Below are positions 37,180 through 55,868 of a stretch of DNA of 64,000 bases, piece by piece. The stretch is from positions 1 to 64,000 of the forward strand of contig NZ_JAUCZG010000017.1 of assembly GCF_030373225.1 (NCBI RefSeq). Reading direction: 5' to 3'. Numbering within the stretch: the stretch's first letter is position 1; each line of letters begins with the position of its first letter. The position numbers and the translations under genes were made by a program. This DNA is from Hydrogenophaga sp. (GTDB taxonomy: Bacteria; Pseudomonadota; Gammaproteobacteria; Burkholderiales; Burkholderiaceae_C). The notes under the pieces were generated by a model that was not told where the DNA came from, did no database searches, and saw nothing but the letters and a program-made list of their open reading frames with translations.

Positions 37180-38307
37180 TCAGTCCCACCAGGGCAGCAG
37201 CCGCTTCATGGCTGCCACTTCGCCGCAGTGGTCGGGCGCGTAGCCCGGCAGGCTCGCCAGCATGTCGTGCCAGTCGCGGCTGCGCAGGCGTTGCAGCAGG
37301 CGCTGCACGGCGGCTTGCTCCAGTGCCGTCTTCAGGCACACCAGCAGGTAGCGCTCTTCGGTGAGCGCCACGAAGCCCAATCCCTGGTTGCGCGCGGCGT
37401 ATTCGGTGCCCAGCCCCACGTCGGCCGAACCGCTGGCCACCGCTTGCGCCACCGCGGCGTGTGAACTCTCCACATGATCGAAGCCGCTGATGTCTTCGGG
37501 CATCAGCAGCGCCTGCGTGAGCAGTTCGTCGAGCAGCAGGCGGGTGCCGGTGCCCAGCGCCCGGTTGACGAAGCGGGCCTGCAGGCGCGCCACGTCGCCC
37601 ATGGTGTTCAAGCGCAGCGGATTGCCGGGAGCCACCATCAGGCCCTGGGCGCGGCGGGCAAAACCGATGATCTTGTGCAGGCCGGGCTTGAGCAGCGGGC
37701 GGTAGGTGCGCGCGCTCTGGCTGCCCGAGGCGGCAAACGGCTGGGCATGAAAGCCGGCGATCGCGCAGCGGCCTTCGTTGAGCGCACGGATCGCATCCAC
37801 GCTGCCGCAGAAGCGAAGGTCGAGGTGCAGGCGGCCCGAGTGCTGGCCGCCCGGTGCGGCACTGGCGGTGAATTCCTGCAGGGCACCCAGGGCGTGATCG
37901 TGACTGGCGTAGATGGTGAGCAACTCGCTGTCGGCCTCGTCGCCGGCGTCGTCGAAGGCACGTGAGAACGCACGCTCCAGTTCGGCGCGCAGCCCTTCGA
38001 TCTGTGGTTTCAGACGCGCCTGCGCCAGGCGCTCGGCCATCAGCAGGCGTTCTCCGAACGGCGTCAGGCGCGCGGCCTGACCGCGTTCCCAGAACAGCAG
38101 CGCCTGGCCCAGGGCCGCTTCCCAGTCCTTGAGCTGCCCCCAGACGTGGCGGTACGACAGACCGAGCTGGCGCGCAGCGGCCGAAATGGAGCCGCTGGTG
38201 TGCACGGCCTGCAGCACGTCCATCATCGGGTTGCGCAACAGCGCATGGCCGCCGGACCGACCCGGTGCACGGTTGGCGAACGCGTACGACAACTCGATCT
38301 GTTTCAT
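37180..38307 (-). CDS. ModE-type HTH regulator with periplasmic-binding-like domain, probable tungstate/molybdate regulator
   Basis: The 375-residue protein has an N-terminal LysR/ModE-type winged helix (about residues 25-90; [28 protein letters not shown]). Its C-terminal domain (about 150-345) looks like the PBP-like substrate-binding domain found fused to such helices near tungstate and molybdate transport genes. It diverges from tupBCA and most likely regulates it, with an oxyanion or a related ligand bound in the C-terminal domain. It differs from the true ModE at 49361, which carries Mop/TOBE-type domains instead. Two different sensors of this kind in one island suggest separate tungstate and molybdate circuits. 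Confidence 0.85.
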
Positions 38308-38384
38308 GGACCGCGAGTGTGCCCCAAGCGCACCAGACCCCTGTCAGCACCGCCGCAGCAAGGGCTGCATCGTATGCAAAGACT

Positions 38385-38410
38385 TGCCTATGCACGGCGA
38401 TTCATACCGC
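38385..38410 (+). promoter_or_regulatory. Operator-like motif upstream of tupB
   Basis: TGCCTATGCAC is followed after seven bases by CATA. The 11-base core and the CATA at identical spacing are shared with the motif upstream of aorA (51449-51474), where the element is a perfect inverted repeat. Here the right half-site (CATACCGC) is degenerate. The motif ends 35 bp before the tupB start at 38446. It is the best candidate binding site for the divergent regulator. Confidence 0.55.
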
Positions 38411-38445
38411 GTCAGTACGTAGCTGCCCAGGGGAGTATTGCCCCT

Positions 38446-39198
38446 ATGCTCAGCGCCCACATGAACACCTTTTCCGACAGCGTCACCACCGCATTGCAGC
38501 TGGTGGTCTCGGGTGATCCGGGCCTGTGGTCGGTGGTCAGCCGGTCCCTGGCCGTGAGTGCCACCGCGTGTTTGCTGGCGTGTGGCCTGGGTCTGGTGCT
38601 CGGCGCGTGGCTGGCGGTCGCGAGGTTTCCCGGGCGCGGCATCGTGCTCACCCTGCTCAACACCTTCCTGGCCGTGCCCTCGGTGGTGGTCGGTCTGGTC
38701 ATCTATCTGCTGCTGTCGCGCTCGGGCCCGCTGGGCTTTCTCGGCTGGCTGTTCAGTTTCCAGGCCATGGTGCTCGCGCAGGCCTGCCTGGTGCTGCCGC
38801 TGGTCACGGCGCTCACGCGCCAGGTGGTGGAGGACGCCGACCGCAGCCATGGCGAGCAGCTCTCCTCGCTGGGTGCCGGGCCGGTGCTGCGCAGCCTGCT
38901 GCTGGCCTGGGACGACCGCTACGCCCTCGTCACCGTGCTGCTCACGGCGTTTGGCCGGGCCGTGTCCGAGGTGGGCGCGGTGATGATCGTGGGCGGCAAC
39001 ATCGAGGGGTTCACCCGCGTCATGACGACCGCCATCGCGCTGGAAACCAGCAAGGGCGACCTGCCGCTTGCGCTGGGCCTCGGGCTGGTGCTGCTGGGCG
39101 TGGTGCTGGTGCTCAATGCCATGGTGTCGCTGCTGAGCCGCTGGCGTGAGCGCGCCGACAGCGCCGATGCCACCCGCTTGACGCTGGTGACGCCATGA
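38446..39198 (+). CDS. tupB: Tungstate ABC transporter permease TupB
   Basis: The 250-residue membrane protein is the permease of a TupABC-type importer. It has about five to six transmembrane helices and the EAA-type loop SSLGAGPVLRSLLLAWDDRY before SEVGAVMIVGGNIEG, which is characteristic of TupB and separates it from ModB. A GGGGAG sequence sits about ten bases before the ATG at 38446. An alternative ATG at 38461 would remove five residues. It is the first gene of tupB-tupC-tupA, and its stop overlaps tupC as ATGA. Confidence 0.92.
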   Translation: MLSAHMNTFSDSVTTALQLVVSGDPGLWSVVSRSLAVSATACLLACGLGLVLGAWLAVARFPGRGIVLTLLNTFLAVPSVVVGLVIYLLLSRSGPLGFLGWLFSFQAMVLAQACLVLPLVTALTRQVVEDADRSHGEQLSSLGAGPVLRSLLLAWDDRYALVTVLLTAFGRAVSEVGAVMIVGGNIEGFTRVMTTAIALETSKGDLPLALGLGLVLLGVVLVLNAMVSLLSRWRERADSADATRLTLVTP

Positions 39199-39959
39199 GT
39201 GGACTGCCTGTGAATGCGGTGGTGCCCGCGGTGTGTTTTGACCTGCGCAACGTGCAGGTGCACCTGGGCCCGGCTGGCCGGCTGCATGCCCTGAGCGACA
39301 TCTACCTGCGCATCCAGGCCGGCGAGCGCGTGGCGCTGGTGGGCGCCAACGGCAGCGGAAAGAGCACATTGCTGCGCACGCTGCACGGCCTGCAGCGTGT
39401 CAGCGGTGGCGAGGTGCAGGCATCGCACCAGCAGCGCGTGGCCATGCTGTTCCAGCGGCCGCACATGCTGCGCCTGAGCGTGCGGCTCAACATCCAGCTC
39501 GGGCTCTGGCTCAAAGGTGTTGCATGGGGCGAGACCCGCGCGCTGGCGCTGGCCGCACTCGACCGTGTGGAGCTCGGACACATTGCCGAGCGCAATGCAC
39601 GCGCTCTCTCGGGCGGTCAGCAGCAGCGCGTGGCGCTGGCCCGCGCCTGGGCCCTGCGGCCCGACGTCTGGCTGCTCGACGAACCCACGGCCAGCCTGGA
39701 CCCGCACGCCAAACGCGAAGTGGAAGCGCAGATCGCCGAGTTCACGCTGGGCAGCCCACCAGCGGCTGGCGAGCGCCCGCCCACGCTGGTCTTCAGCAGC
39801 CACAACCTGGGCCAGGTCAAACGCCTGGCCAGCCGCGTGATCTACCTCGAGCAGGGGCGGCTGCTGGCCGACCTGCCGGTGGCCGATTTTTTCAACCACG
39901 ACCTGTTGCGGTCTCTGTGCCCGCAGGCCCATTTGTTTGTTCAAGGAGAAAGTTCGTGA
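39195..39959 (+). CDS. tupC: Tungstate ABC transporter ATP-binding protein TupC
   Basis: The 254-residue ATPase has Walker A GANGSGKSTLL, signature LSGGQQQRVALARA, Walker B VWLLDEPTAS and the switch His in FSSHNLGQVKRLA. It powers TupB. The gene overlaps tupB by four bases and is itself overlapped by the GTG of tupA, so the importer is translated as a tightly coupled unit. No regulatory TOBE/Mop domain is present, in contrast to ModC at 46756. Confidence 0.93.
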   Translation: MSGLPVNAVVPAVCFDLRNVQVHLGPAGRLHALSDIYLRIQAGERVALVGANGSGKSTLLRTLHGLQRVSGGEVQASHQQRVAMLFQRPHMLRLSVRLNIQLGLWLKGVAWGETRALALAALDRVELGHIAERNARALSGGQQQRVALARAWALRPDVWLLDEPTASLDPHAKREVEAQIAEFTLGSPPAAGERPPTLVFSSHNLGQVKRLASRVIYLEQGRLLADLPVADFFNHDLLRSLCPQAHLFVQGESS

Positions 39960-40768
39960 ATGCATTCCGCCGCCTGACCCTCGCCGCCGCCCTCGGTACC
40001 GCCTTGCTCGCCAGTGCCGGCGCCATGGCCCAGAGCATCGTGGTGGCCTCCACCACGTCCACCGAACAGTCGGGGCTGTTCTCGTTCCTGTTGCCCGAAT
40101 TCAAGAAGGTCAGCGGCATCGATGTGAAGGTGGTCGCACTGGGCACCGGCCAGGCCATCGACATGGCGCGCCGCGGAGACGCCGACGTGCTCTTCGTGCA
40201 CGACAAGGTGGCCGAAGAGAAATTTGTGGCCGACGGCTTTGCCGCCAAGCGCCAGGAGGTCATGTACAACGACTTCGTGCTGATCGGCCCCAAGGCCGAT
40301 CCGGCCGGCACCAAGGGCAGCGACATCGTGGCCGCCATGAAGAAGGTGGCCAGCGCCAACGCGCCGTTCATCTCGCGCGGCGACAAGAGCGGCACGCACG
40401 CGGCCGAGCTGCGCTTCTGGAAGATGACCGACACCGATGCCAACAAGGGCACCGGCTACAAGGAATGCGGCTGCGGCATGGGCCCGGCGCTCAACATCGC
40501 CTCCAGCGCCGGGGCCTATGTGCTCGCCGACCGCGGCACCTGGCTCAACTTCAAGAACCGTGCCGACCTTGCGGTGCTGGTCGAGGGCGACAAACGCCTG
40601 TTCAACCAGTACGGCGTGATGTTGGTCAGCGCTGCCAAACACCCCCAGGTGAAGACGGCTGAAGGCCAGAAGTTCGTGGACTGGGTCACCGGCCCGGCCG
40701 GTCAGGCCGCGATCGCCGGCTACAAGATCGGTGGCGAACAACTCTTTTTCCCGAACGCCTCGAAGTGA
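39956..40768 (+). CDS. tupA: Tungstate-binding periplasmic protein TupA
   Basis: The 270-residue receptor has a signal peptide (about residues 1-25, ending AMAQ). The mature part starts with the TupA hallmark STTSTEQSGLFSFLLPEF, whose TTST-type loop contacts the oxyanion. GDADVLFVHD and FISRGDKSGTH are further ligand-site segments. TupA proteins bind tungstate far more tightly than molybdate. The start is GTG at 39956 behind AAGGAGAA, overlapping the tupC stop. The downstream ModA-like gene starts inside its stop codon. Confidence 0.93.
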   Translation: MNAFRRLTLAAALGTALLASAGAMAQSIVVASTTSTEQSGLFSFLLPEFKKVSGIDVKVVALGTGQAIDMARRGDADVLFVHDKVAEEKFVADGFAAKRQEVMYNDFVLIGPKADPAGTKGSDIVAAMKKVASANAPFISRGDKSGTHAAELRFWKMTDTDANKGTGYKECGCGMGPALNIASSAGAYVLADRGTWLNFKNRADLAVLVEGDKRLFNQYGVMLVSAAKHPQVKTAEGQKFVDWVTGPAGQAAIAGYKIGGEQLFFPNASK

Positions 40769-41568
40769 AGACCCCTCTGATGGTCATCGCGCTCGCTGCG
40801 CTGGCGGGTTGCGCCACGCCTGAGGCTCCCGTCATGCAAGAACCCCTGCAGGTCTACGCCGCTGGCAGTCTGCGCGAGGTGTTGACCGAGATCGCGCGCG
40901 ATCACGAGGCGCGCACCGGCCAGAAGATCGCGCTGACCTTCGGCGCTTCGGGCCTGCTGCGCGAGCGCATTGAAAAAGGCGAGGGCGCGCAGGTGTTTGC
41001 CTCGGCCGACAACCAGCACCCGCAGCGCCTGGCCGCCGCGGGTGGCTGGGCGCCGCCCACCGTGTTCGTGCGCAACAGCCTGTGCGCGCTCACGCAGGCG
41101 GGGACGAACGCCACGCCGCAGAACCTGCTGGAGACCATGCTCAACCCGGCGGTGAAGCTCGGCACCTCCACACCCAAGGCCGATCCTTCGGGCGACTACG
41201 CCTGGGAGCTGTTCCGCAAGGCCGAGACGGTGCGTGCCGGCTCGTATGCCGCGCTCGACGCCAAGGCGCTCAAGCTCACCGGCGGCCCCGACTCGCCCAA
41301 GCCGCCCGCCGGTCGGGGCACTTACGCCTGGGTCATGGACCAGGGCCAGGCCGACGTGTTTCTCACCTACTGCACCAACGCTGTGGCCTCACAAAAAGAG
41401 GTGCCGCGCCTGAAGGTGGTGCAGGTGCCCTCCACCCTGCAGGTGGGTGCGGCCTACGGCCTCACCGTGCGGCGCGGTGCGCCCGCATCGGCCGAGGCCT
41501 TTGCCAAGGCCTTGCTGGCACCCGCCGCGCAGGCCACATTGGCGCGCTACGGCTTTGGCCAGCCTTGA
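40765..41568 (+). CDS. ModA-like molybdate/tungstate-binding lipoprotein
   Basis: The 267-residue product looks like a ModA-type extracytoplasmic binding protein: LQVYAAGSLREVLTEIA at the start of the mature domain, FGASGLLRERIEKGEGAQVFASAD in the middle, and TYCTNAV near the end. It carries a lipoprotein signal with the lipobox LAGC (lipidated Cys16), unlike the soluble ModA at 48540. The start is GTG at 40765, overlapping the tupA stop. It is the second binding protein in this operon and precedes a third, so two or three receptors are made for two permeases. Confidence 0.87.
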   Translation: MKTPLMVIALAALAGCATPEAPVMQEPLQVYAAGSLREVLTEIARDHEARTGQKIALTFGASGLLRERIEKGEGAQVFASADNQHPQRLAAAGGWAPPTVFVRNSLCALTQAGTNATPQNLLETMLNPAVKLGTSTPKADPSGDYAWELFRKAETVRAGSYAALDAKALKLTGGPDSPKPPAGRGTYAWVMDQGQADVFLTYCTNAVASQKEVPRLKVVQVPSTLQVGAAYGLTVRRGAPASAEAFAKALLAPAAQATLARYGFGQP

Positions 41569-42595
41569 AGATCCGGGTCTGCGCCGACGCGATCTGCTGA
41601 TCGCGTCGGGCGCGCTCGCTGGCCTGCCGGCGTGGGCGCAAACGCGCAGCATCACCGACGGCGCGGGCCGCCGCGTGAACGTGCCCGCAAAGGTGCAGCG
41701 CATCTTCCCCGCCGGCCCGCCCGCCGCCATCTGGCTCTACACGCTCGCGCCCGACGCGCTCATCGGCTGGCCGCGCGCCAACCGCGGGCCCGAACTCGAA
41801 TTCCTGTTGCCCGGCATCGGCAACCGGCCCGAGGTGGGACGTCTCACCGGGCGCGGCAACACCACCAACCTTGAACAGCTGCTGCTGAGCAAGCCCGACC
41901 TGATCGTGGACGCGGGCTCGACCCGCCAGACCTTCGTCGAACTGGCCGATCGGGTGCAGGCGCAGACCGGCATTCCCTACGCGCTGCTCGACGGCCGGCT
42001 GGAAGCCACGGCGCCCGGCTACATGTTGCTCGGCGAACTCACCGGCCGGCAGGAGCGCGCAGCGCTTCTGGCGAAGTACGCCGCCGACACCTTGCGCACC
42101 GTGCGCGAGCGGGTTGCCCGCGCATCGGAGCAGCCCCGCGTGTACTACGCGCGCGGCCCCGAAGGCCTGGAGACGGGCCTGGGCGGATCCATCAATGTGG
42201 AGATGTTCGAGGCCATGGGCATCCGCCACGAGGCCGCGGGCCTGCAGGGCGGCCTGGCCCGGGTGTCCATGGAGCAGGTGCTGGCCTGGGACCCGGAGGT
42301 CATCGTCACCATCGACCAGACGTTTTCGCAGACCGTGCGCAGCAACCCGCTGTGGCGCAGTGTGAGCGCCTTGAAAACCGGGCGCGTGCACCTCTCGCCC
42401 AAGCTGCCCTTCGGCTGGATCGACTTTCCCCCCAGCGTCAACCGCCTGCCCGGCCTGTGGTGGCTGGGCAGCAAGGTGTTTCCGGCGCTGTTTCCCGAGG
42501 ACCTGTCGGTGATCACGCGCGAGTTCCACCAGCTGTTTTATCAAGTCGATCTGAGCCCCACGCAGGTTCAACGCGTGCTGGCAGGCCGGGACTGA
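41555..42595 (+). CDS. FecB/BtuF/MolA-type periplasmic binding protein
   Basis: The product of about 346 residues is a class III periplasmic-binding fold (VPAKVQRIFPAGPPAA, NTTNLEQLLLSKPDLIVDAG, WDPEVIVTID). The N-terminus RRRDLLIASGALAGLPAWAQ looks like an export signal, possibly Tat. Relatives bind iron-siderophores, cobalamin or, as MolA, molybdate and tungstate. The setting favours an oxyanion. The start is uncertain: TTG at 41555 overlaps the ModA-like gene, CTG at 41579 is an alternative, and no ATG or GTG is available near the signal peptide. Confidence 0.85.
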   Translation: MASLEDPGLRRRDLLIASGALAGLPAWAQTRSITDGAGRRVNVPAKVQRIFPAGPPAAIWLYTLAPDALIGWPRANRGPELEFLLPGIGNRPEVGRLTGRGNTTNLEQLLLSKPDLIVDAGSTRQTFVELADRVQAQTGIPYALLDGRLEATAPGYMLLGELTGRQERAALLAKYAADTLRTVRERVARASEQPRVYYARGPEGLETGLGGSINVEMFEAMGIRHEAAGLQGGLARVSMEQVLAWDPEVIVTIDQTFSQTVRSNPLWRSVSALKTGRVHLSPKLPFGWIDFPPSVNRLPGLWWLGSKVFPALFPEDLSVITREFHQLFYQVDLSPTQVQRVLAGRD

Positions 42596-42599
42596 GCCC

Positions 42600-43598
42600 A
42601 TGCGCGGCGGTGCCTTCTGGGCGGTGGGCGTGCTGCTCGCGGGTGTGCTGGTGGCGTTCACCCAGGGCCGAACGCCGATTGCGCTGAGCGACCTGTGGCA
42701 GCTCGTGTGGACTGTGCTGCAGGGTGCGCCCGCGCCCAACGAGCAGATGCAGACCATCGTGTGGCAGATCCGCGCTCCGCGCGTGCTGGCTGCGGTGGCG
42801 GTGGGGGCGGCGCTGGCGGTGGCCGGAGCGGCATTCCAGGGCCTGTTTCGCAACCCGCTGGTCTCGCCCGACATCCTCGGGGCATCGGCCGGTGCAGCGC
42901 TGGGCGCGGTGCTCGGCATCTTTTTTTCGTTCGGCGTGTTCGGCATCCAGATGGCGGCCTTCGCCGGTGGCCTGCTGGCCGTGGCGCTGGTGTACGGCGT
43001 GGGTTCCACCGTGCGTCACGGTGACCCGGTGCTGGTGCTGCTGCTCGCGGGCATCGTCATCGGCTCGCTGCTGGGTGCGGGCATCGGCATGGTCAAGGTG
43101 CTGGCCGACCCCTACAACCAGCTGCCCGCCATCACGTTCTGGTTGCTCGGCAGCCTGGCCTCCGCGCACGCCGACGATCTGCCCTCGCTCATCGCACCGG
43201 TGGCCATCGGCACGGTGGTGCTCTTGCTGCTGCGCTGGCGCATGGACGTGATGTCGCTGCCCGAAGAAGAGGCCCGCTCGCTGGGCGCGCGCACCACCGC
43301 TTTGCGTCTGCTCATCGTGGCTGCGGCCACGCTGGTCACCGCCGCGAGCGTGGCGGCCGCCGGCATCGTGGGCTGGGTCGGGCTGGTGGTGCCGCACCTG
43401 GCGCGTTTCCTCGTGGGGCCGTCGTTCGTGCGCCTGCTGCCCACCTCGGCGGTGCTGGGTGGCGGGCTGCTGCTGTTCATCGACACACTGGCGCGCACGC
43501 TCGCGCCGGTGGAGGTTCCTTTGGGCATCCTCACCGCGCTCATCGGCTCGCCGTTTTTCATCGTGCTGTTGCGCCGTGCATCCAGAGGTTGGACATGA
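42600..43598 (+). CDS. FecCD/MolB-type ABC transporter permease
   Basis: The 332-residue membrane protein has about ten transmembrane helices and FecCD-family signatures: RAPRVLAAVAVGAALAVAGA, FRNPLVSPDILGASAGA and GWVGLVVPHLARFLVGP. It pairs with the ATPase that follows (overlap of four bases) and the binding protein before it (four-base gap). Members transport siderophores, cobalamin or, as HI1471 (MolB), molybdate and tungstate. The genome position inside the tungsten/molybdenum island makes the MolB-type role the best inference. Confidence 0.9.
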   Translation: MRGGAFWAVGVLLAGVLVAFTQGRTPIALSDLWQLVWTVLQGAPAPNEQMQTIVWQIRAPRVLAAVAVGAALAVAGAAFQGLFRNPLVSPDILGASAGAALGAVLGIFFSFGVFGIQMAAFAGGLLAVALVYGVGSTVRHGDPVLVLLLAGIVIGSLLGAGIGMVKVLADPYNQLPAITFWLLGSLASAHADDLPSLIAPVAIGTVVLLLLRWRMDVMSLPEEEARSLGARTTALRLLIVAAATLVTAASVAAAGIVGWVGLVVPHLARFLVGPSFVRLLPTSAVLGGGLLLFIDTLARTLAPVEVPLGILTALIGSPFFIVLLRRASRGWT

Positions 43599-44464
43599 GC
43601 GCAGCGCCGGGCCGCTCCCAGGCAAGCTCGCACCGCAGCCCGCAGGGCGAAGGTGGTCCAGTGAATGCCATGCTGCAGGCCACCGACCTCCGTGTGGGCT
43701 ACCCTGGCCACGTGGTCGGCTCAGGCCTGTCGCTCGCGCTCCGGGGCGGCGAGGTGCTCGCGCTGCTCGGCCCCAACGGCTGCGGCAAGACCACGCTGCT
43801 CAAGACCTTGCTCGGCCTGTTGCCGGCGCTCGGTGGTCAGGTTCGGCTGCAGGGCAGGGCGTTGGCGCAATGGTCACTGGCCGAACGTGCGCGCGAGCTT
43901 GCCTATGTCCCGCAGGGGCAGGCCAGCACCTTCGGGTTCACCGCACTGGAGATGGTGCTCATGGGCCGCACCGCGCACCAGGGGCTGATCGCCCGGCCCG
44001 GCGCGCAAGACCGTGCCATCGCCCACAGGGCGCTGCAGCGCGTGGGCATGGCGCACCTGGGCGAACGGTCGGTGCACCGCATCAGCGGCGGCGAACGGCA
44101 GCTGGTCCTGATCGCACGGGCGCTGGCGCAGCAGCCGCGTGCCGTGCTGCTGGACGAACCCACCGCCAGCCTCGATTTCGGCAACCAGGGCCTGGTGATG
44201 CGCGCCATCCGTGCGCTGGCCAGCGAGGGCCTGGCGGTGCTGTTCACCACGCACGACCCCAACCAGGCACTGCGCTGCGCCGACCGCGCCCTGCTCATGC
44301 GCGAAGGGCAGGTGATGGCCGAGGGCGCGGCGGATCAGGTGGTCGAGGCCGGGGGCCTGCGTGCGCTCTACAGCGCGGGGGTGGTGCAGGTGAACGATGC
44401 CGCCGGTGGGCCACCGGTCTTTCTGCCCGCATTTGGTCGGGCCGAAGCAGGACCCGGTCAATGA
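43595..44464 (+). CDS. FecE/MolC-type ABC transporter ATP-binding protein
   Basis: The 289-residue ATPase has Walker A GPNGCGKTTLLK, signature ISGGERQLVLIARAL, Walker B AVLLDEPTASLD and switch His in FTTHDPNQAL, typical of FecE/BtuD-type subunits. From the ATG at 43595 the first 22 residues (APGRSQASSHRSPQGEGG) are not family-like and may come from a repeat element. The GTG at 43661 or ATG at 43670 would start close to the conserved TDLRVGYPG. The ATG at 43595 overlaps the permease stop as ATGA, which favours it. Confidence 0.88.
   Translation: MSAAPGRSQASSHRSPQGEGGPVNAMLQATDLRVGYPGHVVGSGLSLALRGGEVLALLGPNGCGKTTLLKTLLGLLPALGGQVRLQGRALAQWSLAERARELAYVPQGQASTFGFTALEMVLMGRTAHQGLIARPGAQDRAIAHRALQRVGMAHLGERSVHRISGGERQLVLIARALAQQPRAVLLDEPTASLDFGNQGLVMRAIRALASEGLAVLFTTHDPNQALRCADRALLMREGQVMAEGAADQVVEAGGLRALYSAGVVQVNDAAGGPPVFLPAFGRAEAGPGQ
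43604..43660 (+). repeat. Possible repeat-derived 5' extension of the MolC-like gene
   Basis: The sequence from GCCGGGCCGCTCCCAGGC to the GGTGGTCCAGTGAATG region shares the style of the Comamonadaceae GC-rich repeat family but lacks the C5/G5 hairpin. It encodes non-conserved residues before the ATPase core. This is a weak call. Confidence 0.3.
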
Positions 44465-44491: not shown

Positions 44492-44498
44492 CATCCGC

Positions 44499-48539: not shown

Positions 48540-49286
48540 TCAGATGTCGTAGCCAAAGGACCGGATGAGGGCCTGGGTGTCGGGGCTTTTCAGCAACGCC
48601 ATGAGCGCCTTCGCGGCCGGATTGCCGGCACCGGTTTTCAGCAGCACCGCGTCCTGCCGGATAGGCGCATACAGGTTTTGCGGCACCACCCACATCGAGC
48701 CGCTCTTGAGCTTGCCACCTTCGAGCACCTGCGACATGGCCACGAGTGCGATTTCGGCGTTGCCGGTGAAAGCGAAGTTGTAGGTCTGGCCGATGCTCTC
48801 GCCCTGCACCAGCTTCGGCGTGAGTGCCGCCAGGAGGCCCAGCTTGTCGATCACCTCGATGGAGGCTGCGCCGTACGGCGCCGTCTTGGGGTTGGCGGTG
48901 GCCAGCTTGCGAAAACCACCGCTCTTGAGCACCGCGCCCTGCGCATCCACCCTGGTCGCATCGGCCGACCACAGCACCAGCTTGCCGGTGGCGTAGGTGA
49001 AGCGGCTTCCGGGCTGCGCCAGACCATCGGTGTCGAGCTGGGCGGGTGTCTTGGTGTCGGCCGCGAGCAGCACGTCGAATGGCGCGCCATTCCTGATCTG
49101 CGCGTAGAGCCGTCCGGTGGAACCCACCGTGATCTTGAGCGTGTGCCCGGTGGTCTTTTCCAGCACCGCTGCAATGGCCTTGATCGGCTCGGCAAAGTTG
49201 GCCGCCACTGCCACCTGGGCTTCGGCGGCGTGCAGCGAGCCAGCCACGAGCAACAGCAGGGCGGACCACAGTGAACGTGAGAACAT
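48540..49286 (-). CDS. modA: Molybdate-binding periplasmic protein ModA
   Basis: The 248-residue receptor has a signal peptide (about residues 1-20, ending LHA) and a mature domain with QVAVAANFAEPIKAI, TVGSTGRLYAQIRNGAPFDVLLAAD and YNFAFTGNAEIALVAMSQV, which hold the oxyanion-contact Ser and Asn residues of ModA. It is the first gene of modABC, and its start lies 25 bases from the ModE-box palindrome shared with modE. It is the soluble counterpart of the ModA-like lipoprotein at 40765. Confidence 0.95.
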   Translation of the reverse strand: MFSRSLWSALLLLVAGSLHAAEAQVAVAANFAEPIKAIAAVLEKTTGHTLKITVGSTGRLYAQIRNGAPFDVLLAADTKTPAQLDTDGLAQPGSRFTYATGKLVLWSADATRVDAQGAVLKSGGFRKLATANPKTAPYGAASIEVIDKLGLLAALTPKLVQGESIGQTYNFAFTGNAEIALVAMSQVLEGGKLKSGSMWVVPQNLYAPIRQDAVLLKTGAGNPAAKALMALLKSPDTQALIRSFGYDI

Positions 49287-49310: not shown

Positions 49311-49333
49311 CGCTATTCCAATTCAGAATAACG
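49311..49333. promoter_or_regulatory. ModE-box-like operator between modA and modE
   Basis: CGCTATTC and GAATAACG form an imperfect palindrome (8 of 11 pairs) centred near 49322. The CGnTAT...ATAACG form matches the ModE operator of Escherichia coli. It is centred between the divergent modA and modE starts and would let molybdate-loaded ModE repress both. Confidence 0.7.
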
Positions 49334-49360: not shown

Positions 49361-50134
49361 ATGGCTACCAGAAAAAGCACGCCCCCCACGCTCACCGATC
49401 TGCCTCAGGCACTGGCGGACGCCAGCGCCGACAAGCGCCTGGACGTGCTGCGCCATGTGGCCGCCGGCTGCTCCATCTCGCAGGCGGCGCGCCAGGTCGG
49501 CATCAGCTACAAGGCCGCGTGGCAGGCCATCGACACGCTGAGCAACCTCGGCGGCGTGCCGCTGGTGGAGCGCACCGTGGGCGGTGTGGGCGGCGGTGGT
49601 GCGCGCATCACCGCCCAGGGCCTGCAACTGCTGTCGCTCGCCGCCGAGATGGCCCGCGCGCGCCAGCAGGTGCTGGCCCGCTTTGCCGGCGGCGCCATCG
49701 GAGAGGCCGGCCTCGGCCTGCGCACCAGCATGCGCAACCAGCTGCGCTGTCGCGTGCTGCGTTGCGCGCCTCAGACCCGGGGCGACCCGACGGTGGAGGT
49801 GACGCTGGCCACACCGGGCGGCGCTCAGCTGGTCTCCAGCATCACGCAGGAAAGCGCAGACCTGCTGGGCCTCAAGCCCGGGCTGGCGGTGCTGGCCTTG
49901 TGCAAGGCCACGGCGGTGACGGTGTCGCTGGCTTCATCCGGGGCGGCGGCGGGCGTGCTCCACGGTGACATCGAGCGCTGTTCGCCCGGAACCCGGCAGG
50001 ACGAGGTGGTGCTGGCGCTGCTGGGCGGCGGACACTGGGTGGGCTTTGCCCGCCACCCGTTCAAGGGGCGGGTGGGTGATGCCGCGGTGGCAGAGTTGCT
50101 GCCGGCCGCGCTGGTGATCGGGCTGGCCGACTGA
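49361..50134 (+). CDS. modE: Molybdate-dependent transcriptional regulator ModE
   Basis: The 257-residue protein has the ModE winged helix (about residues 20-85; LRHVAAGCSISQAARQVGISYKAAW, LVERTVGG) and two Mop/TOBE-type domains after about residue 120 (RNQLRCRVLRCAP...VEVTLATPGG, and GLKPGLAVLALCKATAVTV). It binds molybdate or tungstate and represses modABC. The ATG at 49361 matches the family start, and the frame upstream has no HTH-compatible residues. It diverges from modA around the ModE-box. Confidence 0.95.
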   Translation: MATRKSTPPTLTDLPQALADASADKRLDVLRHVAAGCSISQAARQVGISYKAAWQAIDTLSNLGGVPLVERTVGGVGGGGARITAQGLQLLSLAAEMARARQQVLARFAGGAIGEAGLGLRTSMRNQLRCRVLRCAPQTRGDPTVEVTLATPGGAQLVSSITQESADLLGLKPGLAVLALCKATAVTVSLASSGAAAGVLHGDIERCSPGTRQDEVVLALLGGGHWVGFARHPFKGRVGDAAVAELLPAALVIGLAD

Positions 50135-50144: not shown

Positions 50145-51275
50145 TCAGCCGTCCGACCGTTTGCGCATCAGCTTGCGGTACACGGTGGCCCGACTGATGC
50201 CCAGCGCCCGCGCCGCTTCCATCACGTTGCCCCGGGCATCTTCCACCGCCTGGCGGATGAGCGCTGTTTCAACGTCTTTCAGCGGGACGCCGGCCTGGGC
50301 AGCCGGACGCGTGGCGTGCTGCCCGGCCCGCCTGTGGTGCTGGCCGTGCCGGGCCAGAACCTGCAGGCGCAAGCCCGACCACAGCGGCAGCTCGGTGGTG
50401 GTGCGCTGTTGCCTGGCCATGTCGAACAGGCTGTCGGTGGGCACGGCGAACACGTCGCTGCAATGCATCGGGGGCGTGCCGCCGACCAGGCTGAGCATGG
50501 TGGCCGCAGCGCGGTTGGAGCCGGTGATCGTGCCGTCGGCGTCGACGCACACCAGGCCGTCGCTGTCGTCCGCTGGGGTGCAGCCGGGCCAGGTGATGCG
50601 CAGCAGCAGCTCGTGGGGCTGGGCCAGCGCCATGGCGTTTTCGATGCTGCGCGCCGACTGGGTGACCAGGTGTTTGAGGGCCGGGCGCTCGGGCACGTTG
50701 ACGCCGGTCAGGTCGAGCATGCCGACGCAGCGGCCGTCGGGCCCGAACAGGGGCGCGCCGGCACAGCTGTAGACGCCAGCCTCGTCGAAGAAGTGTTCAC
50801 CCCGGTGCAGCCAGACCGGTTGTTGCTCGGCCAGCGCGGCACCAATGGCGGTGGTTCCCACCGCGCGTTCGGACAAGTCGACGCCCACGCGGGCGATCAG
50901 TGCCGCCTGCGGGTTGTGGCGGTCGATCGGACCGTTCACATCGATCACCACGCCTTGCGCATTGGTCAGGATGGCGAAGTAGTGGGTGTCGGCCATGGTG
51001 CGCGCCAGCGACCGGATGACCGGCGCTGCCGCGTTGAGCAAGGGCTGGCTGGCGTCGAGGGCCTGGCGCGTTGCCGGTGCCGAGACGGCCTGGAAATTCA
51101 GCCGCTGGCGGGGTTGCAGGCCTTGCTGCAGGCAGCGCCGCCACGAGCGATCGATCCAGGGTTCGATCCAGGGCGCCAGGGCGCCGTCGTTCAACACCGA
51201 CTGGCGCGCTGCATCGATGAGGCGCAAACGCTCCACCGGGGGAGCAGCGGCTGGAACGGCGCGGTTCAATGTCAT
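50145..51275 (-). CDS. GAF-PAS-Fis regulator without AAA+ domain (AcoR-like N-terminus)
   Basis: The 376-residue protein resembles AcoR-type activators at its N-terminus: the helical SVLNDGALAPWIEPWIDRSWRRC, then a GAF domain (about 75-210; SERAVGTTAIGAALAEQQPVW, CAGAPLFGPDGRCVGMLDLTG). A PAS-like segment (about 235-290) follows. It goes straight into a C-terminal Fis-type helix-turn-helix (KDVETALIRQAVEDARGNV, AARALGISRATVYRKL). The sigma-54 AAA+ domain with GESGTGKE is absent, so it cannot drive sigma-54 promoters by itself. It diverges from the aldehyde oxidoreductase operon and probably senses an aldehyde or alcohol to control it. Confidence 0.88.
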   Translation of the reverse strand: MTLNRAVPAAAPPVERLRLIDAARQSVLNDGALAPWIEPWIDRSWRRCLQQGLQPRQRLNFQAVSAPATRQALDASQPLLNAAAPVIRSLARTMADTHYFAILTNAQGVVIDVNGPIDRHNPQAALIARVGVDLSERAVGTTAIGAALAEQQPVWLHRGEHFFDEAGVYSCAGAPLFGPDGRCVGMLDLTGVNVPERPALKHLVTQSARSIENAMALAQPHELLLRITWPGCTPADDSDGLVCVDADGTITGSNRAAATMLSLVGGTPPMHCSDVFAVPTDSLFDMARQQRTTTELPLWSGLRLQVLARHGQHHRRAGQHATRPAAQAGVPLKDVETALIRQAVEDARGNVMEAARALGISRATVYRKLMRKRSDG

Positions 51276-51448
51276 GGACAGGCTCGGGTGTGGAAGGATG
51301 GTCAGAGGCTGCGGCGCCGCGAAGTCGGCCCGCTGTGCGTGTGGGCAAGTATGCCCATCGTGCACTGTTTCAATTTGAGAATTTCGCTTCGCCGTCCCAT
51401 TCCGACTAGGGATAACCCTTGGCGTGAAGTGGTGTTGGCGACCAACAA

Positions 51449-51474
51449 TGCCTATGCACTTCCCTACATAGGCA
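51449..51474 (+). promoter_or_regulatory. Operator-like palindrome upstream of aorA
   Basis: TGCCTATG-N10-CATAGGCA is a perfect 8-bp inverted repeat ending 43 bp before the aorA ATG. The stretch TGCCTATGCAC-N7-CATA is identical in sequence and spacing to one upstream of tupB (38385-38410). A -10-like TACATA (51465-51470) overlaps the right arm, so protein bound here should block or position RNA polymerase. Confidence 0.65.
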
Positions 51475-51517: not shown

Positions 51518-51994
51518 ATGCAAAAAGTCTTGCACATCAACCCGGACAAATGCACCGGTTGCCTGCAGTGCGAAATGGCCTGTTCGTTCGAGAACTACGG
51601 CACCTATGCCACCTCAAAGTCGCGCATCAAGGTTTTCGACTTCCACCACACCGGCAAGAAAGTGCCCTACACCTGCACCCAGTGCGACGAGGCCTGGTGC
51701 CTGCACGCCTGCCCGGTGGAAGCGATCACGGTGGACAAGATGACTGGCGCCAAGGTGGTCAACGAGACCACCTGCGTGGGCTGCAAGGTCTGCACCATTG
51801 CCTGCCCGTTCGGCACCATCAACTACGTGCAGGAAACCGGCAAGGTCCAGAAGTGCGACCTGTGTGGTGGCGAGCCGGCTTGCGCCGAGGCCTGCCCGAC
51901 CGCAGCCATCACCTTCATCGATGCCAACTGGACCGGCATGGACAAGATGAAGCAGTGGGCCGACAAGCTGGGCAACCAGCCCTCTGCAGCCTGA
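51518..51994 (+). CDS. aorA: Iron-sulfur electron-transfer subunit of aldehyde oxidoreductase (AorA-like)
   Basis: The 158-residue protein is a polyferredoxin with sixteen Cys in four clusters of four: CTGCLQCEMAC, CTQCDEAWCLHAC, CVGCKVCTIAC and CDLCGGEPACAEAC, enough for four [4Fe-4S] centres. It matches the small subunit of bacterial AOR complexes such as that of Aromatoleum aromaticum, where it links the tungsten subunit to the flavin subunit. CAGGAG precedes the ATG. It is the first gene of the operon, and the catalytic gene follows after 42 bp. Confidence 0.92.
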   Translation: MQKVLHINPDKCTGCLQCEMACSFENYGTYATSKSRIKVFDFHHTGKKVPYTCTQCDEAWCLHACPVEAITVDKMTGAKVVNETTCVGCKVCTIACPFGTINYVQETGKVQKCDLCGGEPACAEACPTAAITFIDANWTGMDKMKQWADKLGNQPSAA

Positions 51995-52036: not shown

Positions 52037-53884
52037 ATGTCATGGGCTGGAAAAATCCTCCGCGTCAACCTGACCGCGGGCACCGTGAAGACCGAAGCGC
52101 TGAACACGGAGTGGGCACGTTCCTACATCGGCTCGCGCGGTCTGGGCAGCAAATACCTGGTGACCGAGGTCGACCCCAAGGTCGATCCGCTGTCGCCCGA
52201 GAACAAACTGATCTGGGCCACCGGCCCGTTGACCGGCACCATGGCCTCCACGGGCGGTCGCTACACCGTGATCACCAAGGGCCCGCTCACGGGTGCCATC
52301 GCCTGTTCGAACTCGGGCGGCTACTGGGGTGCCGAGCTCAAGATGGCCGGCTGGGACATGATCATCTTCGAGGGCAAGAGCCCGACGCCGGTGTACCTGT
52401 ACATCAACGACGACGACGTCGAACTGCGTGACGCCAGCCACCTCTGGGGCCAGAGCGTCTGGAAAACCGAAGAGGTGCTCAAGTCGAGCCTGCAGGACCC
52501 GCTGGTTCGTGTGTCGAGCATCGGCAAGGCGGGTGAAAACGGCGTGCTCTACGCGGCCGTGGTCAACGACCTGCACCGCGCGGCCGGCCGCTCGGGCGTG
52601 GGCGCCGTCATGGGCAGCAAGAACCTCAAGGCCATTGCGGTGCGCGGCACCAAGGGCGTGGGGAACATCCGCGACCCCAAGGCCTTCATGAAGACCACCT
52701 TCGAGAAGAAGAAGATCCTGGCCGAGAACGCGGTGACCGGACAGGGCCTTCCCGCCTACGGCACGCAGGTGCTCATGAACGTGATCAACGAGATCGGTGC
52801 ATTGCCCACACGCAACCACCGCGACGTGCAGTTCGAAGGCGCCAAGGACATCTCGGCCGAAGCCATGGTCACGCCGCGCGAGAGCGACGGCAAGAAGCAT
52901 CTGGTGACCAACCAGGCCTGCTTCGGTTGCACCATTGCCTGCGGTCGCATCAGCAAGATGGACGAGAACCACTTCACGGTGAAGAACAAGCCGCAGTACT
53001 GGGGCGCCAACGGCGGCCTCGAATACGAAGCGGCCTGGGCGCTCGGTGCGGCCAATGGCGTGAACGATCTGGAAGCCCTGCAGTACGCCAACCTGCTGTG
53101 CAACGAAGAAGGGTTCGATCCGATCAGCTTCGGCGCCACCGTGGGCGCGGTGATGGAGCTCTATGAAATGGGCGTGCTGACGCAGGAGCAACTTGGCATC
53201 GACGCGAAATTCGGCTCGGCGCAGGCCCTGGCCCACTTCGCCGAGATCACCGCCCGGGGCGAGGGCTTCGGCAAGGAGATCGGCATGGGCTCGGCCCGGT
53301 TGACGAAGAAGTACGGCCACCCCGACCTGTCCATGAGCGTCAAGGGCCAGGAATTCCCGGCCTACGACGGTCGTGCGATCCAGGGCATCGGCCTGGCCTA
53401 CGCCACCTCCAACCGCGGCGCCTGCCACCTGCGCGGCTACACCATCGCCTCTGAAGTGCTGGGCATTCCGGTCAAGACCGACCCGGTCGAGTCCGAAGGC
53501 AAGCCCGAACTGGTGAAGGCGTTCCAGGACGCCACTGCGGCCTTCGACTCGTCGGGCCTGTGTGTGTTCACCACCTTCGCCTGGGGTGTTGCCGACCTGG
53601 CTCCCCAGCTGCAGGCGGCTTGCAACGAGGAATTCACCACCGAAGAGCTGGAGAAGATCGGCGAGCGCATCTGGAACATGGAGCGCGAGTTCAACAACGC
53701 CGCCGGCTTCACGTCCAAGGACGACAGCCTGCCCAAGCGCCTGCTGACCGAAGCGGCCAAGACCGGCGCCTCCAAAGGCATGGTCAGCAAGCTGCCCGAG
53801 ATGCTGCCCAAGTACTACGCCGCGCGCGGCTGGGACAGCGAAGGCCGCCCCACCGCCGAGACCCGGGCGCGCCTGAGCCTCTGA
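52037..53884 (+). CDS. aorB: Tungsten-containing aldehyde ferredoxin oxidoreductase catalytic subunit (AorB-like)
   Basis: The 615-residue subunit oxidises aldehydes to acids, or reduces acids at low potential, with a tungsto-bispterin cofactor. Family segments are SSIGKAGENGV, RAAGRSGVGAVMGSKNLKAIAVRG (the pterin-binding signature region) and EYEAAWALGAANG. The [4Fe-4S] ligands are Cys295, Cys298 and Cys302 in CFGCTIAC plus Cys509 in GLCVF. AAGGAGC lies before the ATG. The gene is followed by an intrinsic-terminator-like hairpin before aorC. The mesophilic AOR complexes known use NAD through the flavin subunit. Confidence 0.95.
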   Translation: MSWAGKILRVNLTAGTVKTEALNTEWARSYIGSRGLGSKYLVTEVDPKVDPLSPENKLIWATGPLTGTMASTGGRYTVITKGPLTGAIACSNSGGYWGAELKMAGWDMIIFEGKSPTPVYLYINDDDVELRDASHLWGQSVWKTEEVLKSSLQDPLVRVSSIGKAGENGVLYAAVVNDLHRAAGRSGVGAVMGSKNLKAIAVRGTKGVGNIRDPKAFMKTTFEKKKILAENAVTGQGLPAYGTQVLMNVINEIGALPTRNHRDVQFEGAKDISAEAMVTPRESDGKKHLVTNQACFGCTIACGRISKMDENHFTVKNKPQYWGANGGLEYEAAWALGAANGVNDLEALQYANLLCNEEGFDPISFGATVGAVMELYEMGVLTQEQLGIDAKFGSAQALAHFAEITARGEGFGKEIGMGSARLTKKYGHPDLSMSVKGQEFPAYDGRAIQGIGLAYATSNRGACHLRGYTIASEVLGIPVKTDPVESEGKPELVKAFQDATAAFDSSGLCVFTTFAWGVADLAPQLQAACNEEFTTEELEKIGERIWNMEREFNNAAGFTSKDDSLPKRLLTEAAKTGASKGMVSKLPEMLPKYYAARGWDSEGRPTAETRARLSL

Positions 53885-53965: not shown

Positions 53966-55252
53966 ATGCACCACGTCATCCTGGGCGCCGGCCCCGCCGG
54001 TGTCATCGCCGCCGAGACCATTCGCAAGCACGCCCCCGCCGACACCATCACGCTGGTGGGTGACGAGGCCGAACCGCCGTATTCGCGCATGGCCATTCCC
54101 TACCTGCTGATCGGCAATGTCAAGGAAACCGGCACCTACCTGCGCAAGAGCCTCACGCACTTCACCGACCAGCGCATCGAGCAGGTGACGGGTCGCGTCA
54201 CGGCGGTGGACGCGAAGGCCCGCACCGTGACGCTGGACAACGGCGGCCAGCTCAGCTTCGACAAGCTGCTGATCGCCACCGGCTCGCACCCGGTGCGCCC
54301 GCCGATTGCGGGCATGGACCTGCCCGGTGTGCACCCTTGCTGGACGCTGGAAGACGCGCGCGCCATCATGGCCCTGGCCCGGCCGGGTGCCCGCGTGCTG
54401 CAGATGGGCGCCGGCTTCATCGGCTGCATCATCATGGAAGCCCTGGCTGCGCGCGGCGTGGCGCTCAGCGTGGTGGAGATGGGCGACCGCATGGTGCCGC
54501 GCATGATGGGCCCCACGGCCGGCGGCATGATCCGCGACTGGTGCGAGAAGAAGGGCGTGAAGGTCTTCACCGGCACCAAGGTCGAAGCGATCGAAGCCGG
54601 CTCCGGCCCCGACTCGGGCCTGCGCGTCAAGCTGTCCAACGGGCAGACGGTGGAAGCCGATCTGGTGATCAGCGCCACCGGCGTGCGCCCGGCGATCGGC
54701 TTTTTGAAGGATTCCGGCATCACCTGCCTGCTGGGCGTGTTGACCGACGAGCACCTGCAGACCAACGTCAGTGGCATCTATGCCGCCGGTGACTGCGCCG
54801 AGGCTTTCGACAAGGTCAGCGGCAAGACCATCGTGAGTGCCATCCAGCCCAATGCCGCCGAACAGGCCCGCGTGGCCGCGCTCAACATGGTGGGCCAGAA
54901 GGCCGACCTCAAGGGGGTGACGCAGATCAACGTGCTCGACACGCTGGGCCTCATTTCCACCAGCTTCGGCAACTGGGAGGGTGTGCCCGGCGGTGAACAC
55001 GCCGAACTGACCGACCAGGCCAGCGGCCGCCACCTGAGCCTGCAGTTCCAGGGCGACGTCATGGTCGGCTGCAACTCGGTGGGCTGGACCGAACACGTGG
55101 GTGTGATGCGCGGACTGGTCGAAGGCCAGGTGAAGCTGGGTGAATGGAAAGACCGCCTGCTGCACGATCCCACCAAGCTCATGGACGCCTACCTGGCGAG
55201 TGCGCAAGGGCAGGGGCAGTGGGCCGGTGCTGCAGACGAGCGCAGACGCTGA
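53966..55252 (+). CDS. aorC: FAD/NAD-binding subunit of aldehyde oxidoreductase (AorC-like)
   Basis: The 428-residue flavoprotein belongs to the pyridine-nucleotide-disulfide oxidoreductase fold. The N-terminal FAD motif VILGAGPAGVIAAETIR, a central ATGSHPVRPPIAGMDLPG, a second dinucleotide fold starting LQMGAGFIGCIIMEALA and the FAD C-motif IYAAGDCAEAF are visible. No redox-active CxxxxC pair is seen, so it is a reductase-type, not a disulfide, enzyme. It should pass electrons from the AorAB part to NAD+. It follows the aorB terminator hairpin, and a repeat element lies after it. Confidence 0.9.
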   Translation: MHHVILGAGPAGVIAAETIRKHAPADTITLVGDEAEPPYSRMAIPYLLIGNVKETGTYLRKSLTHFTDQRIEQVTGRVTAVDAKARTVTLDNGGQLSFDKLLIATGSHPVRPPIAGMDLPGVHPCWTLEDARAIMALARPGARVLQMGAGFIGCIIMEALAARGVALSVVEMGDRMVPRMMGPTAGGMIRDWCEKKGVKVFTGTKVEAIEAGSGPDSGLRVKLSNGQTVEADLVISATGVRPAIGFLKDSGITCLLGVLTDEHLQTNVSGIYAAGDCAEAFDKVSGKTIVSAIQPNAAEQARVAALNMVGQKADLKGVTQINVLDTLGLISTSFGNWEGVPGGEHAELTDQASGRHLSLQFQGDVMVGCNSVGWTEHVGVMRGLVEGQVKLGEWKDRLLHDPTKLMDAYLASAQGQGQWAGAADERRR

Positions 55253-55270
55253 ACATGACCTGTCCCTTTT

Positions 55271-55297
55271 CCCGTTCGCCCTGAGCCTGTCGAAGGG
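55271..55297 (+). repeat. Palindromic repeat between aorC and the MoaD-like gene
   Basis: A single full copy of the element (CGTTCGCCCTGAGCCTG, then TCGAAGGG) lies in the 57-bp gap between aorC and the MoaD-like gene. It is the only lone copy in the window, and it sits inside an operon. Confidence 0.8.
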
Positions 55298-55309
55298 ACC
55301 CTGCCATCC

Positions 55310-55564
55310 ATGAACATCACTTTCAAGCTCTTCGCCACGCTCACCGACTACCTGCCCCCGCAGGCCCGGCGCAGCAACCAGGTGTCGCTGGACATCGACC
55401 CGGCCACGCCCATCAGCCAGATCATCGAACCCTTTGGCCTGCCGCCCAAGCTGGTGCACCTGGTGCTGGTCAACGGCAAGTACATCCAGCCCGAGGACCG
55501 CCTGAGCGCCACGCTGGTCGAGGGTGACGTACTGGCCATCTGGCCGCCGATTGCCGGAGGCTGA
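55310..55564 (+). CDS. aorD: MoaD/ThiS family sulfur carrier protein of the aldehyde oxidoreductase operon
   Basis: The 84-residue protein has a ubiquitin-like beta-grasp fold (ITFKLFATLTDYLPP, LVNGKYIQPEDRLS, EGDVLAIWPPIAGG) and ends in Gly-Gly, the attachment site for thiocarboxylate sulfur. MoaD-like proteins supply sulfur for the pterin dithiolene. Its place in the aor operon suggests a form used for the tungsten cofactor. It matches the MoaD-like gene of the Aromatoleum aor operon. No partner MoaE or MoeB gene is nearby. The next gene starts at a GTG five bases after its stop. Confidence 0.9.
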   Translation: MNITFKLFATLTDYLPPQARRSNQVSLDIDPATPISQIIEPFGLPPKLVHLVLVNGKYIQPEDRLSATLVEGDVLAIWPPIAGG

Positions 55565-55568
55565 CGCG

Positions 55569-55868
55569 GTGCAGTCGAGCTACGACGAGCGCTTCGAGCG
55601 CGACATGGGCTGCACCGAGGCCGAGTGGCTGGGCTGGCTGCCTGCGGCGGTGGGCGCCTGTGTCTGGCACCGCGAGGGCAGCCGGGTCGACATCGAGGTG
55701 CCACCCGGCCGGCTCTCGGTGCACTGGGCCCAGCAACCGCCGCGGGTGATCGCGCTCATGCGCATGCCGGTGCTGCGGGTGAATTTTGCATTCAGCGGGC
55801 TGGACGCCGGGCAGCGCTACGCCTTCATGAAGCGCTTCGATCTGTACATGCAGCGTGGCGGCGGCTGA
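55569..55868 (+). CDS. Small protein of the aldehyde oxidoreductase operon
   Basis: I do not recognise this 99-residue protein. It is soluble, with no signal peptide, and starts at a GTG (55569) five bases after the MoaD-like gene. Visible features are SSYDERFERDMGCTEAEWLGWLP near the start, a WHREGSRVDIEVPPGRLSVHW segment, and VLRVNFAFSGLDAGQRYAFMKRFDLY near the C-terminus. Its tight coupling to the aor operon suggests a role in cofactor insertion or complex assembly, by context only. The open frame extends upstream to 55524 with little support. Confidence 0.75.
   Translation: MQSSYDERFERDMGCTEAEWLGWLPAAVGACVWHREGSRVDIEVPPGRLSVHWAQQPPRVIALMRMPVLRVNFAFSGLDAGQRYAFMKRFDLYMQRGGG

Follow-up and report, generated by a model that had tools for sequence, protein, structure and literature searches.

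A stretch of 64,000 nucleotides from Hydrogenophaga sp. (contig NZ_JAUCZG010000017.1, positions 1 to 64,000; hereafter the window) carries the same 18-bp inverted repeat, TATG-N10-CATA, in front of tupB and aorA. The former belongs to the genes of the tungstate importer TupBCA, the latter to those of the tungsten aldehyde oxidoreductase (AOR) AorABC. The two copies occupy 38389-38406 and 51453-51470, and they share a wider form, CTATGCA-N6-TTCATAG. Both fall within a tungsten/molybdenum island at 37180-55868. Judging from the sequence comparisons described below, this island is likely to be a tungsten regulon. The regulator encoded at 37180-38307 would bind the repeat and sense tungstate, setting uptake and enzyme jointly. 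The source genome has 4.0 Mb and is 99.97% complete. We compared it with a sample of 299 genomes of its family, its own included. Genes were located by translation, by scans with Pfam and NCBIfam families and by matches to solved chains in the PDB.

A repeat shared by tup and aor

The whole genome contains four matches to TATG-N10-CATA, against six to a reversed control pattern. Two of the four are a single sequence near contig ends, on C15 and on C24; on C15, 27 bases follow the site. Therefore, the repeat probably occupies three places rather than four, and two of these are the tup and aor promoters.

AorB was matched at E <= 1e-60 in 86 of the 299 family genomes, and it is present in 47 of the 141 genera sampled. 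The 250 bases upstream of aorA could be read in 83 of the 86 AOR genomes, the exceptions being G008 and G166, truncated at contig ends, and G281, which was not fetched. The repeat is exact in 43 of these promoters and has one mismatch in 18; the other 22 show neither. Mononucleotide-shuffled promoters gave 0.16 exact matches and 4.0 within one mismatch. The tup promoters are more uniform. Among 76 distinct ones from fetched loci (four duplicates removed), 69 have the exact repeat, one has it with one mismatch and six have none, while shuffles gave 0.13 of 80. Genomes without an AorB match keep it too, exact in 15 of 19 readable tup promoters, so the repeat belongs to tungstate uptake as such.

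Several other kinds of upstream region lack the repeat. It was found upstream of none of five modA, four modE, 30 crcB and 16 lipoprotein genes, although the last lie inside an operon and make a weak control. The preliminary description of this DNA had ModE sorting the metals for the tungsten enzyme. The zero counts in the few modA and modE regions read do not support this, and a different regulator is implicated. Likewise, control of aor by ModE was considered and dropped, as the aor promoter has no repeat in common with the modA-modE region. Matches upstream of gafFis (32/66) and of the regulator gene (26/67) are explained by regions shared with aorA and tupB.

Eight relatives picked for an exact aor site all have a tup site (8/8), with 3 to 25 sites per genome. 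Their tup and aor genes are separated by 23 to 457 kb or lie on different contigs. One of them, G163, has a third exact repeat (L271:7955-7972), between modE and a formate dehydrogenase (FDH) operon that is 32-40% like the tungsten type. The same contig carries tupBCA, modCBA, aor and the regulator gene; in this island, two enzymes are candidates for tungsten or molybdenum.

The position of the repeat at aor suggests how it might act. In the window it begins 3 bases downstream of AACAAT, a -10-like element. Across the relatives, CAACAAT (at most one mismatch) precedes the exact core in 28 of the 43 aor promoters with an exact repeat, and in 22 of these 28 it ends 3 bases before the repeat. A protein bound there would probably cover the transcription start, which suggests direct repression. 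Two further inverted repeats are conserved upstream, at 51366-51385 and 51406-51422. They occur at no more than one mismatch in 31 and 36 of the 83 promoters (shuffles: 0.08 and 2.2). These candidate activator sites may bind a protein such as the GAF-Fis regulator.

The gene of that regulator (50145-51275, minus strand) is divergent from aorA and was overlooked in the preliminary description. It had raised the idea of sigma-54 control of aor. This was rejected: the family scan gave no AAA+ match for the protein, and no fitting GG-N10-GC pair was visible by eye.

The candidate regulator and its paralogue

The regulator gene (37180-38307, minus strand) is divergent from tupB. Its product joins a LysR/ModE-type winged helix-turn-helix (HTH) to a PF12727 domain (186.8 bits). 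PF00126 (47.4 bits) is the sole HTH model at E <= 0.001, and TIGR00637 reaches 44.9 bits, below its cut-off of 98.5. The PF12727 region also touches SBP_bac_11, a general oxyanion-binder model, at 24.9 bits (cut-off 25). The protein had been described as a second regulator with a ModE-type HTH. This was right for the HTH. The rest is different: PF12727 is a periplasmic-binding-protein-like (PBP-like) domain, and no TOBE domain, as found in ModE, appears at E <= 0.001. Compared with the LysR family, PF00126 is present and PF03466 is not reported; PF03466 is weak in both paralogues scanned. An AlphaFold (AF2) model (mean pLDDT 84, pTM 0.66) resembles full-length LysR-type regulators (8sbf, E 5e-15). 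According to a passage in PMC11733289, a PBP-like domain of the PF12727 type is fused to MoeA1, which co-occurs with TupA. PF12727 is also named for one of two MoeA copies of Desulfovibrio vulgaris in PMC10102598.

Regulator and repeat go together among relatives. Orthologues were searched in 80 of the 86 AOR genomes, leaving out six fragmentary ones. They were found in 70 (71 matches; that of G032, at 40%, was set aside). Allowing one mismatch, the aor site is present in 56 of 70 genomes with the orthologue and in 2 of 10 without (Fisher p 3e-4, kinship uncorrected). Counting exact sites only, the numbers are 41/70 and 1/10 (p 0.005). G025 and G152 have the regulator and no aor site within 250 bases.

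A second regulator of this kind (40% identity) is encoded on contig C18 of the same genome, divergent from FDH genes. The repeat between them has one mismatch. The alpha part of this FDH matches 7vw6, the 'Tungsten-containing formate dehydrogenase alpha subunit', with 1175 bits, and the next protein with 532. In the congener G114, the repeat between paralogue and FDH genes is exact, and the alpha subunit gives 1182 bits with 7vw6. On C18, FdhB and FdhA form a single open frame of 1558 amino acids (L269:1631-6307, minus strand), while G114 (L270) has two overlapping genes. The single frame may be a genuine fusion, or the sequences may differ where the two genes join.

This pairing is general in the loci that we read. 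Fifteen regulator matches with less than 50% identity were considered, of which L278 was left out for being closer to the first type and for its lack of an FDH match. FDH genes stand beside the paralogue in all 14 remaining loci. The repeat is exact in nine of them and has one mismatch in two. Ten loci have an FdhA, and one (L282) only an FdhB, at least 57% identical to that of G114; the other three are only 37-40% alike. From this resemblance, we infer that the FDH at those 11 loci carries tungsten. At L275 and L277, where the FDH is only 37-40% like the tungsten type, a TupA-like gene (28%) adjoins the paralogue on the side away from FDH (L275:2565-3347 and L277:2359-3084). It possibly encodes a separate oxyanion-binding protein.

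The proposed tungsten regulon and its alternatives

In the regulon that we propose, the regulator would bind TATG-N10-CATA at tup and aor through its LysR/ModE-type HTH. The PF12727 domain would sense intracellular tungstate, or the balance of molybdate and tungstate. One signal would then set uptake (TupBCA, the lipoprotein and the Mol-type importer) and enzyme (AorABC and two accessory genes). Bound over the aor transcription start, the regulator would repress directly, and an activator such as the GAF-Fis protein might act on aor from the two upstream repeats. MolABC would enlarge uptake under the same switch. modABC and ModE probably run alongside on a separate switch of the molybdate type. 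The module was probably copied for another tungsten enzyme, with the paralogue divergent from the tungsten-type FDH and the same kind of repeat between them. Whether the regulator represses or activates aor can only be guessed; release and tightening by tungstate cannot be told apart from the letters of the DNA. A broader proposal is that regulators combining an HTH of the LysR/ModE type with a PBP domain of the MoeA1 type form a family of tungsten sensors in Burkholderiales, each paired with its own tungsten enzyme and all recognizing one operator. For this generalization, we see the chances as about even.

Several observations weigh against the regulon. With one repeat in front of both an uptake gene and a gene of metal use, an opposite response of the two is not obvious. 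In D. vulgaris, TaoR reportedly activates aor and represses tup when tungsten is present (Rajeev et al. 2019). Fourteen of the 70 aor promoters from genomes with the regulator orthologue lack the repeat even at one mismatch. G040 has an exact aor site and no detected regulator, in a genome that is 74% complete. Ten of 15 distinct tup promoters keep the site though the fetched locus is without the regulator, which may sit elsewhere, and L077, where the regulator is present, lacks the site at tup. The repeat is absent from three of the 14 loci with paralogue and FDH. Its totals are not higher than those of the reversed control in four of the eight relatives (5 against 9 in G114, 3 and 3 in G280, 7 and 7 in G284, 9 against 11 in G163). 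They exceed it in only four, and therefore the signal rests on the positions of the repeats.

Genomes outside the family were also counted against it. In an order-level set of 250 genomes, AorB was matched at E <= 1e-200 in 24, three of them from the family. L241 (cut) and L249 (no aorA) were left unjudged among the other 21. The core is present in seven of 13 genomes with a regulator match (E <= 1e-30) and in none of six without; some of these matches are only 37-43% alike and perhaps paralogues. Finally, PF12727 is weakened as a mark of tungsten by Desulfovibrio, whose two MoeA copies are not split between molybdenum and tungsten according to PMC10102598.

The regulator might bind the repeat and respond to something else. 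Its signal would be molybdate or an intermediate of the pterin cofactor, and plentiful molybdenum would shut tungsten uptake and use. The near-match to SBP_bac_11 is compatible with this reading, and the unspecialised MoeA copies of Desulfovibrio (PMC10102598) point the same way. So do the paralogue loci L275, L277 and L285 and the G163 site, which stand beside FDH genes only 32-40% like the tungsten type. However, the best-identified targets are a tungstate importer, a tungsten aldehyde oxidoreductase and a tungsten-type FDH. The few mod upstream regions that were read are all without the repeat. We judge a molybdate or pterin signal unlikely.

A simpler view is that of an ordinary neighborhood of molybdenum and tungsten genes, where the repeat serves promoters in general or is the site of another regulator, for example the GAF-Fis protein. 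The gafFis gene adjoins aor in many loci, and nearly half of its upstream regions contain the repeat, in the stretch shared with aorA. Nevertheless, the exact repeats in tup promoters of genomes without AOR do not agree with this view. Neither do the repeat at FDH beside a paralogous regulator and the few other positions in the genome. It seems to us very improbable.

Among the nearest known systems are TaoR and ModE. Helix-turn-helix-17 (HTH_17) domains are of the excisionase type. TaoR regulates a tungsten aldehyde oxidoreductase in Desulfovibrio and combines an HTH of this type with PBP-like domains, as stated in PMC11980592. A regulator of tungstate uptake appears under the name tupR, citing Rajeev et al. 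2019, in PMC10102598. The protein of the window resembles TaoR in joining an HTH to a PBP-like effector domain. TaoR reportedly has binding sites at both aor and tup, for which the shared repeat would be a putative counterpart. It differs in the HTH, which is of the LysR/ModE type with no HTH_17 match (HTH_17 being described for TaoR-like proteins in PMC11980592), and in having a paralogue at a tungsten-type FDH. It is probably like TaoR in function, and its DNA-binding domain places it outside the TaoR family. With ModE it shares a related HTH, as the TIGR00637 score below cut-off indicates, and a proposed control by oxyanions. PF12727 in place of TOBE, another putative operator and other target genes set it apart.

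The island, its recurrence and the Mol-type importer

The island contains three oxyanion importers of the ATP-binding cassette (ABC) type (Tup, Mol-like and Mod), an orphan ModA-like lipoprotein, ModE, the second regulator and the aorABC operon. The genes listed in the preliminary description (tupBCA, lipoprotein, FecCD-type system, modABC, modE, second regulator, aorABC and a MoaD-like gene) were all found where it placed them. Its count of up to four uptake systems has to be lowered to three ABC transporters and an extra substrate-binding lipoprotein.

From tupB to molC (38446-44464, plus strand), genes overlap at start and stop or are separated by 4 bases at each junction. For this reason the region looks like one operon of seven genes. 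TupB (38446-39198) is a tungstate permease by NF038017 (225.1 bits, cut-off 100), and NF041773 gives 180.5 (below its cut-off of 320). The ATPase TupC (39195-39959, ABC_tran) sits between tupB and tupA. TupA (39956-40768), the tungstate-binding protein, matches PDB 3lr1 with 236 bits and NF041772 with 211.9 (below its cut-off of 400). The TupA equivalog is the top family for TupA, and the TupB equivalog the second for TupB, yet both stay under their cut-offs.

The lipoprotein follows (40765-41568; NF002917 306.5 bits, cut-off 264). Its gene comes after tupA in 14 of 60 fetched loci and in L175 and L230. It was rejected as a fourth transporter: the island holds no separate permease to go with it, and the next gene found behind it in L057, L175 and L230 is a convergent modC.

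The last three genes of the putative operon encode the Mol-type system. The MolA-like binding protein (41555-42595; the chosen TTG start is uncertain) matches 4pag with 133 bits, 4ovk with 70 and HI_1472 (3psa) with 56. The MolB-like FecCD permease (42600-43598) is best matched by HI1471 (2nq2, 225 bits), the next being FhuB (180). For the MolC-like ATPase (43595-44464; ABC_tran), the best families, ATPases of the heme, corrinoid and FecE types, all stay below cut-off.

The reported 2.3-kb stretch of small genes corresponds to 44465-46755. It holds four genes on the plus strand (44499-46743): a membrane open reading frame, DUF3597, a small secreted protein and DUF427. They have no visible role with tungsten or molybdenum; the scans exclude 45910-46170. 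DUF3597 and the membrane frame remain beside tup in L161, and DUF3597 in L047.

The molybdate genes come next. modCBA (46756-49286, minus strand) comprises ModC (46756-47856, 412.9 bits), ModB (47853-48536, 244.2) and ModA (48540-49286, 205.6), all over the equivalog cut-offs of TIGR01256, TIGR02141 and TIGR02142. An inverted repeat between modA and modE (49311-49333) is a candidate ModE site, a name that we infer. ModE (49361-50134, plus strand) has one TOBE/Mop match (TIGR00638 59.3 bits, cut-off 55). TOBE (55 bits) and HTH_1 (38.2 bits) are both over the Pfam cut-offs, while TIGR00637 (72.5) and NF007957 (117.1) are below theirs.

The aor operon is on the plus strand. The order aorA-aorB-aorC, the AFOR domains and the FAD subunit are those of a bacterial three-subunit AOR. 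AorA (51518-51994) is the Fe-S subunit (Fer4 families), whose gene adjoins aorB in relatives too. AorB (52037-53884), the tungsten subunit, matches 8c0z with 1049.8 bits and AFOR_N/AFOR_C, and it is 98% identical to AorB in Hydrogenophaga records. The family scans give AorC (53966-55252) as the FAD/NAD subunit. A MoaD/ThiS-like protein (55310-55564; PF14451 41.9 bits, PF02597 29.9) is the candidate AorD, the operon being as in PMC6365974. The final gene (55569-55868) is conserved in relatives, with 38-89% identity across the loci compared for neighborhood. Its product has no Pfam or NCBIfam match; this candidate AorE may be a maturation factor.

The union of importer and enzyme recurs. TupA (E <= 1e-30) was found in 174 of the 299 family genomes, more precisely in 82 of the 86 with AOR and in 92 of the 213 without (odds ratio 27, Fisher p 3e-19, kinship uncorrected). 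Seventy-five of the 82 have a place for TupA among the matches listed. There, TupA and AorB are less than 15 kb apart in 27 genomes, the own included, less than 5 kb in 16 and on different contigs in 29. The order regulator-tupBCA-(gafFis)-aorABC-moaD-orf was found in several genera among 60 fetched loci, 20 of which had been preselected for closeness of tup and aor. We also compared the best 80 named AorB loci, 56 of which extend 8 kb or more upstream of aorB. In these 56, tupA is found upstream in 25, modB in five and both in three (L175, L220 and L230).

L175 (a Hydrogenophaga metagenome-assembled genome, MAG) and L230 (a Burkholderiales MAG) have the order regulator-tupBCA-lipoprotein-modCBA-modE-gafFis-aorABC-moaD-orf. 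This is the island of the window minus MolABC and the small genes; G152 is also without the lipoprotein. In the three congeners, tup and aor are 39 kb (G280) or 64 kb (G114) apart or on separate contigs (G208), and in G114 and G280 the 16 kb upstream of aor gave no match to a mod gene. Thus the island recurs without being fixed, and its uniqueness is dropped. The full combination, of which the preliminary description knew no account as one unit, is nearly matched in L175 and L230, all but MolABC and the small genes. Co-occurrence, linkage and the shared putative operator support the view that tungstate importer and tungsten enzyme belong together.

MolABC is a rare local addition to the island. 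A homologue of the permease (E <= 1e-70) occurs in 18 of the 299 family genomes, the own included, and only that of G195 exceeds 61% identity, at 74%. All 17 other genomes were compared, giving 18 loci (G294 twice). In 11 of the 18, genes that match mod or tup were found up to about 9 kb away, a count without a comparison rate for other FecCD permeases. Except in G195, these matches have 27-42% identity. G195 has the order tupA-lipoprotein-molABC, and an exact TATG-N10-CATA stands 79 bases in front of tupA. No tupB or tupC was matched beside these genes; both the regulator (53%) and a relative of tupB (59%) sit on a different contig, and AorB was not found at E <= 1e-60. This arrangement supports a tungstate or molybdate role for MolABC without proving it.

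The FecCD-type system might also carry an iron complex or cobalamin and be a mere neighbor. The NCBIfam matches of the permease are to models for BtuC, Fhu and Fec, and all of them fall short of the cut-off. Its binding protein ranks HI_1472 third among solved chains, behind 4pag and 4ovk and at a modest score, and seven of the 18 homologous loci have no mod or tup match. However, the best solved permease is HI1471, the overlapping gene ends put these genes in one operon with tup, mod or tup matches lie near the majority of homologous loci, and the G195 cluster sits behind the repeat. An iron or cobalamin role therefore appears quite unlikely. The resemblance to MolABC of Haemophilus influenzae (HI1470-HI1472) consists of the permease as best match and the binding protein as third-best. 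That of the island is joined to a tup operon and has tungstate or molybdate as a putative ligand. No paper on MolABC together with Tup was found in open-access PubMed Central (PMC) full texts.

Other tungsten loci share parts of this organization. AorABCDE of Aromatoleum aromaticum has the same subunits and order, with two small genes, aorD and aorE, behind (PMC6365974); the operon is also covered in PMC10413684. The words 'tup' and 'regulator' are absent from the texts of both, and 'tup', 'transport' and 'regulat' from that of the review PMC12096430. In Cetobacterium somerae, tup is linked to WOR, another enzyme class (PMC13328260). In Methylorubrum extorquens, the importer is next to cofactor genes, in the order moeA1-mobB-tupBCA (PMC13197769). 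Passages of these two papers on the linkage mention no shared operator. We found no report of the operator, of a regulator with this LysR/ModE-type HTH or of its pairing with a tungsten-type FDH in open-access PMC full texts, a scope that does not cover Rajeev et al. 2019, which possibly treats relatives. Likewise, these full texts gave no paper on LysR with tungstate and FDH.

To our knowledge, it is an open question by what means a cell separates tungstate from molybdate. Interest in AOR and tungsten FDH comes from the reduction of acids and of CO2, and producing either needs a supply of tungsten. The repeat common to importer and enzyme names one candidate protein and one putative DNA site for matching the supply of a rare metal to its demand. 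It also points to further genes that are possibly tungsten-dependent, here those of formate dehydrogenases. If the broader proposal for Burkholderiales is true, its regulators would be a tungsten counterpart of ModE, with a DNA-binding domain different from that of TaoR, and the cell could tell tungstate from molybdate inside the cytoplasm.

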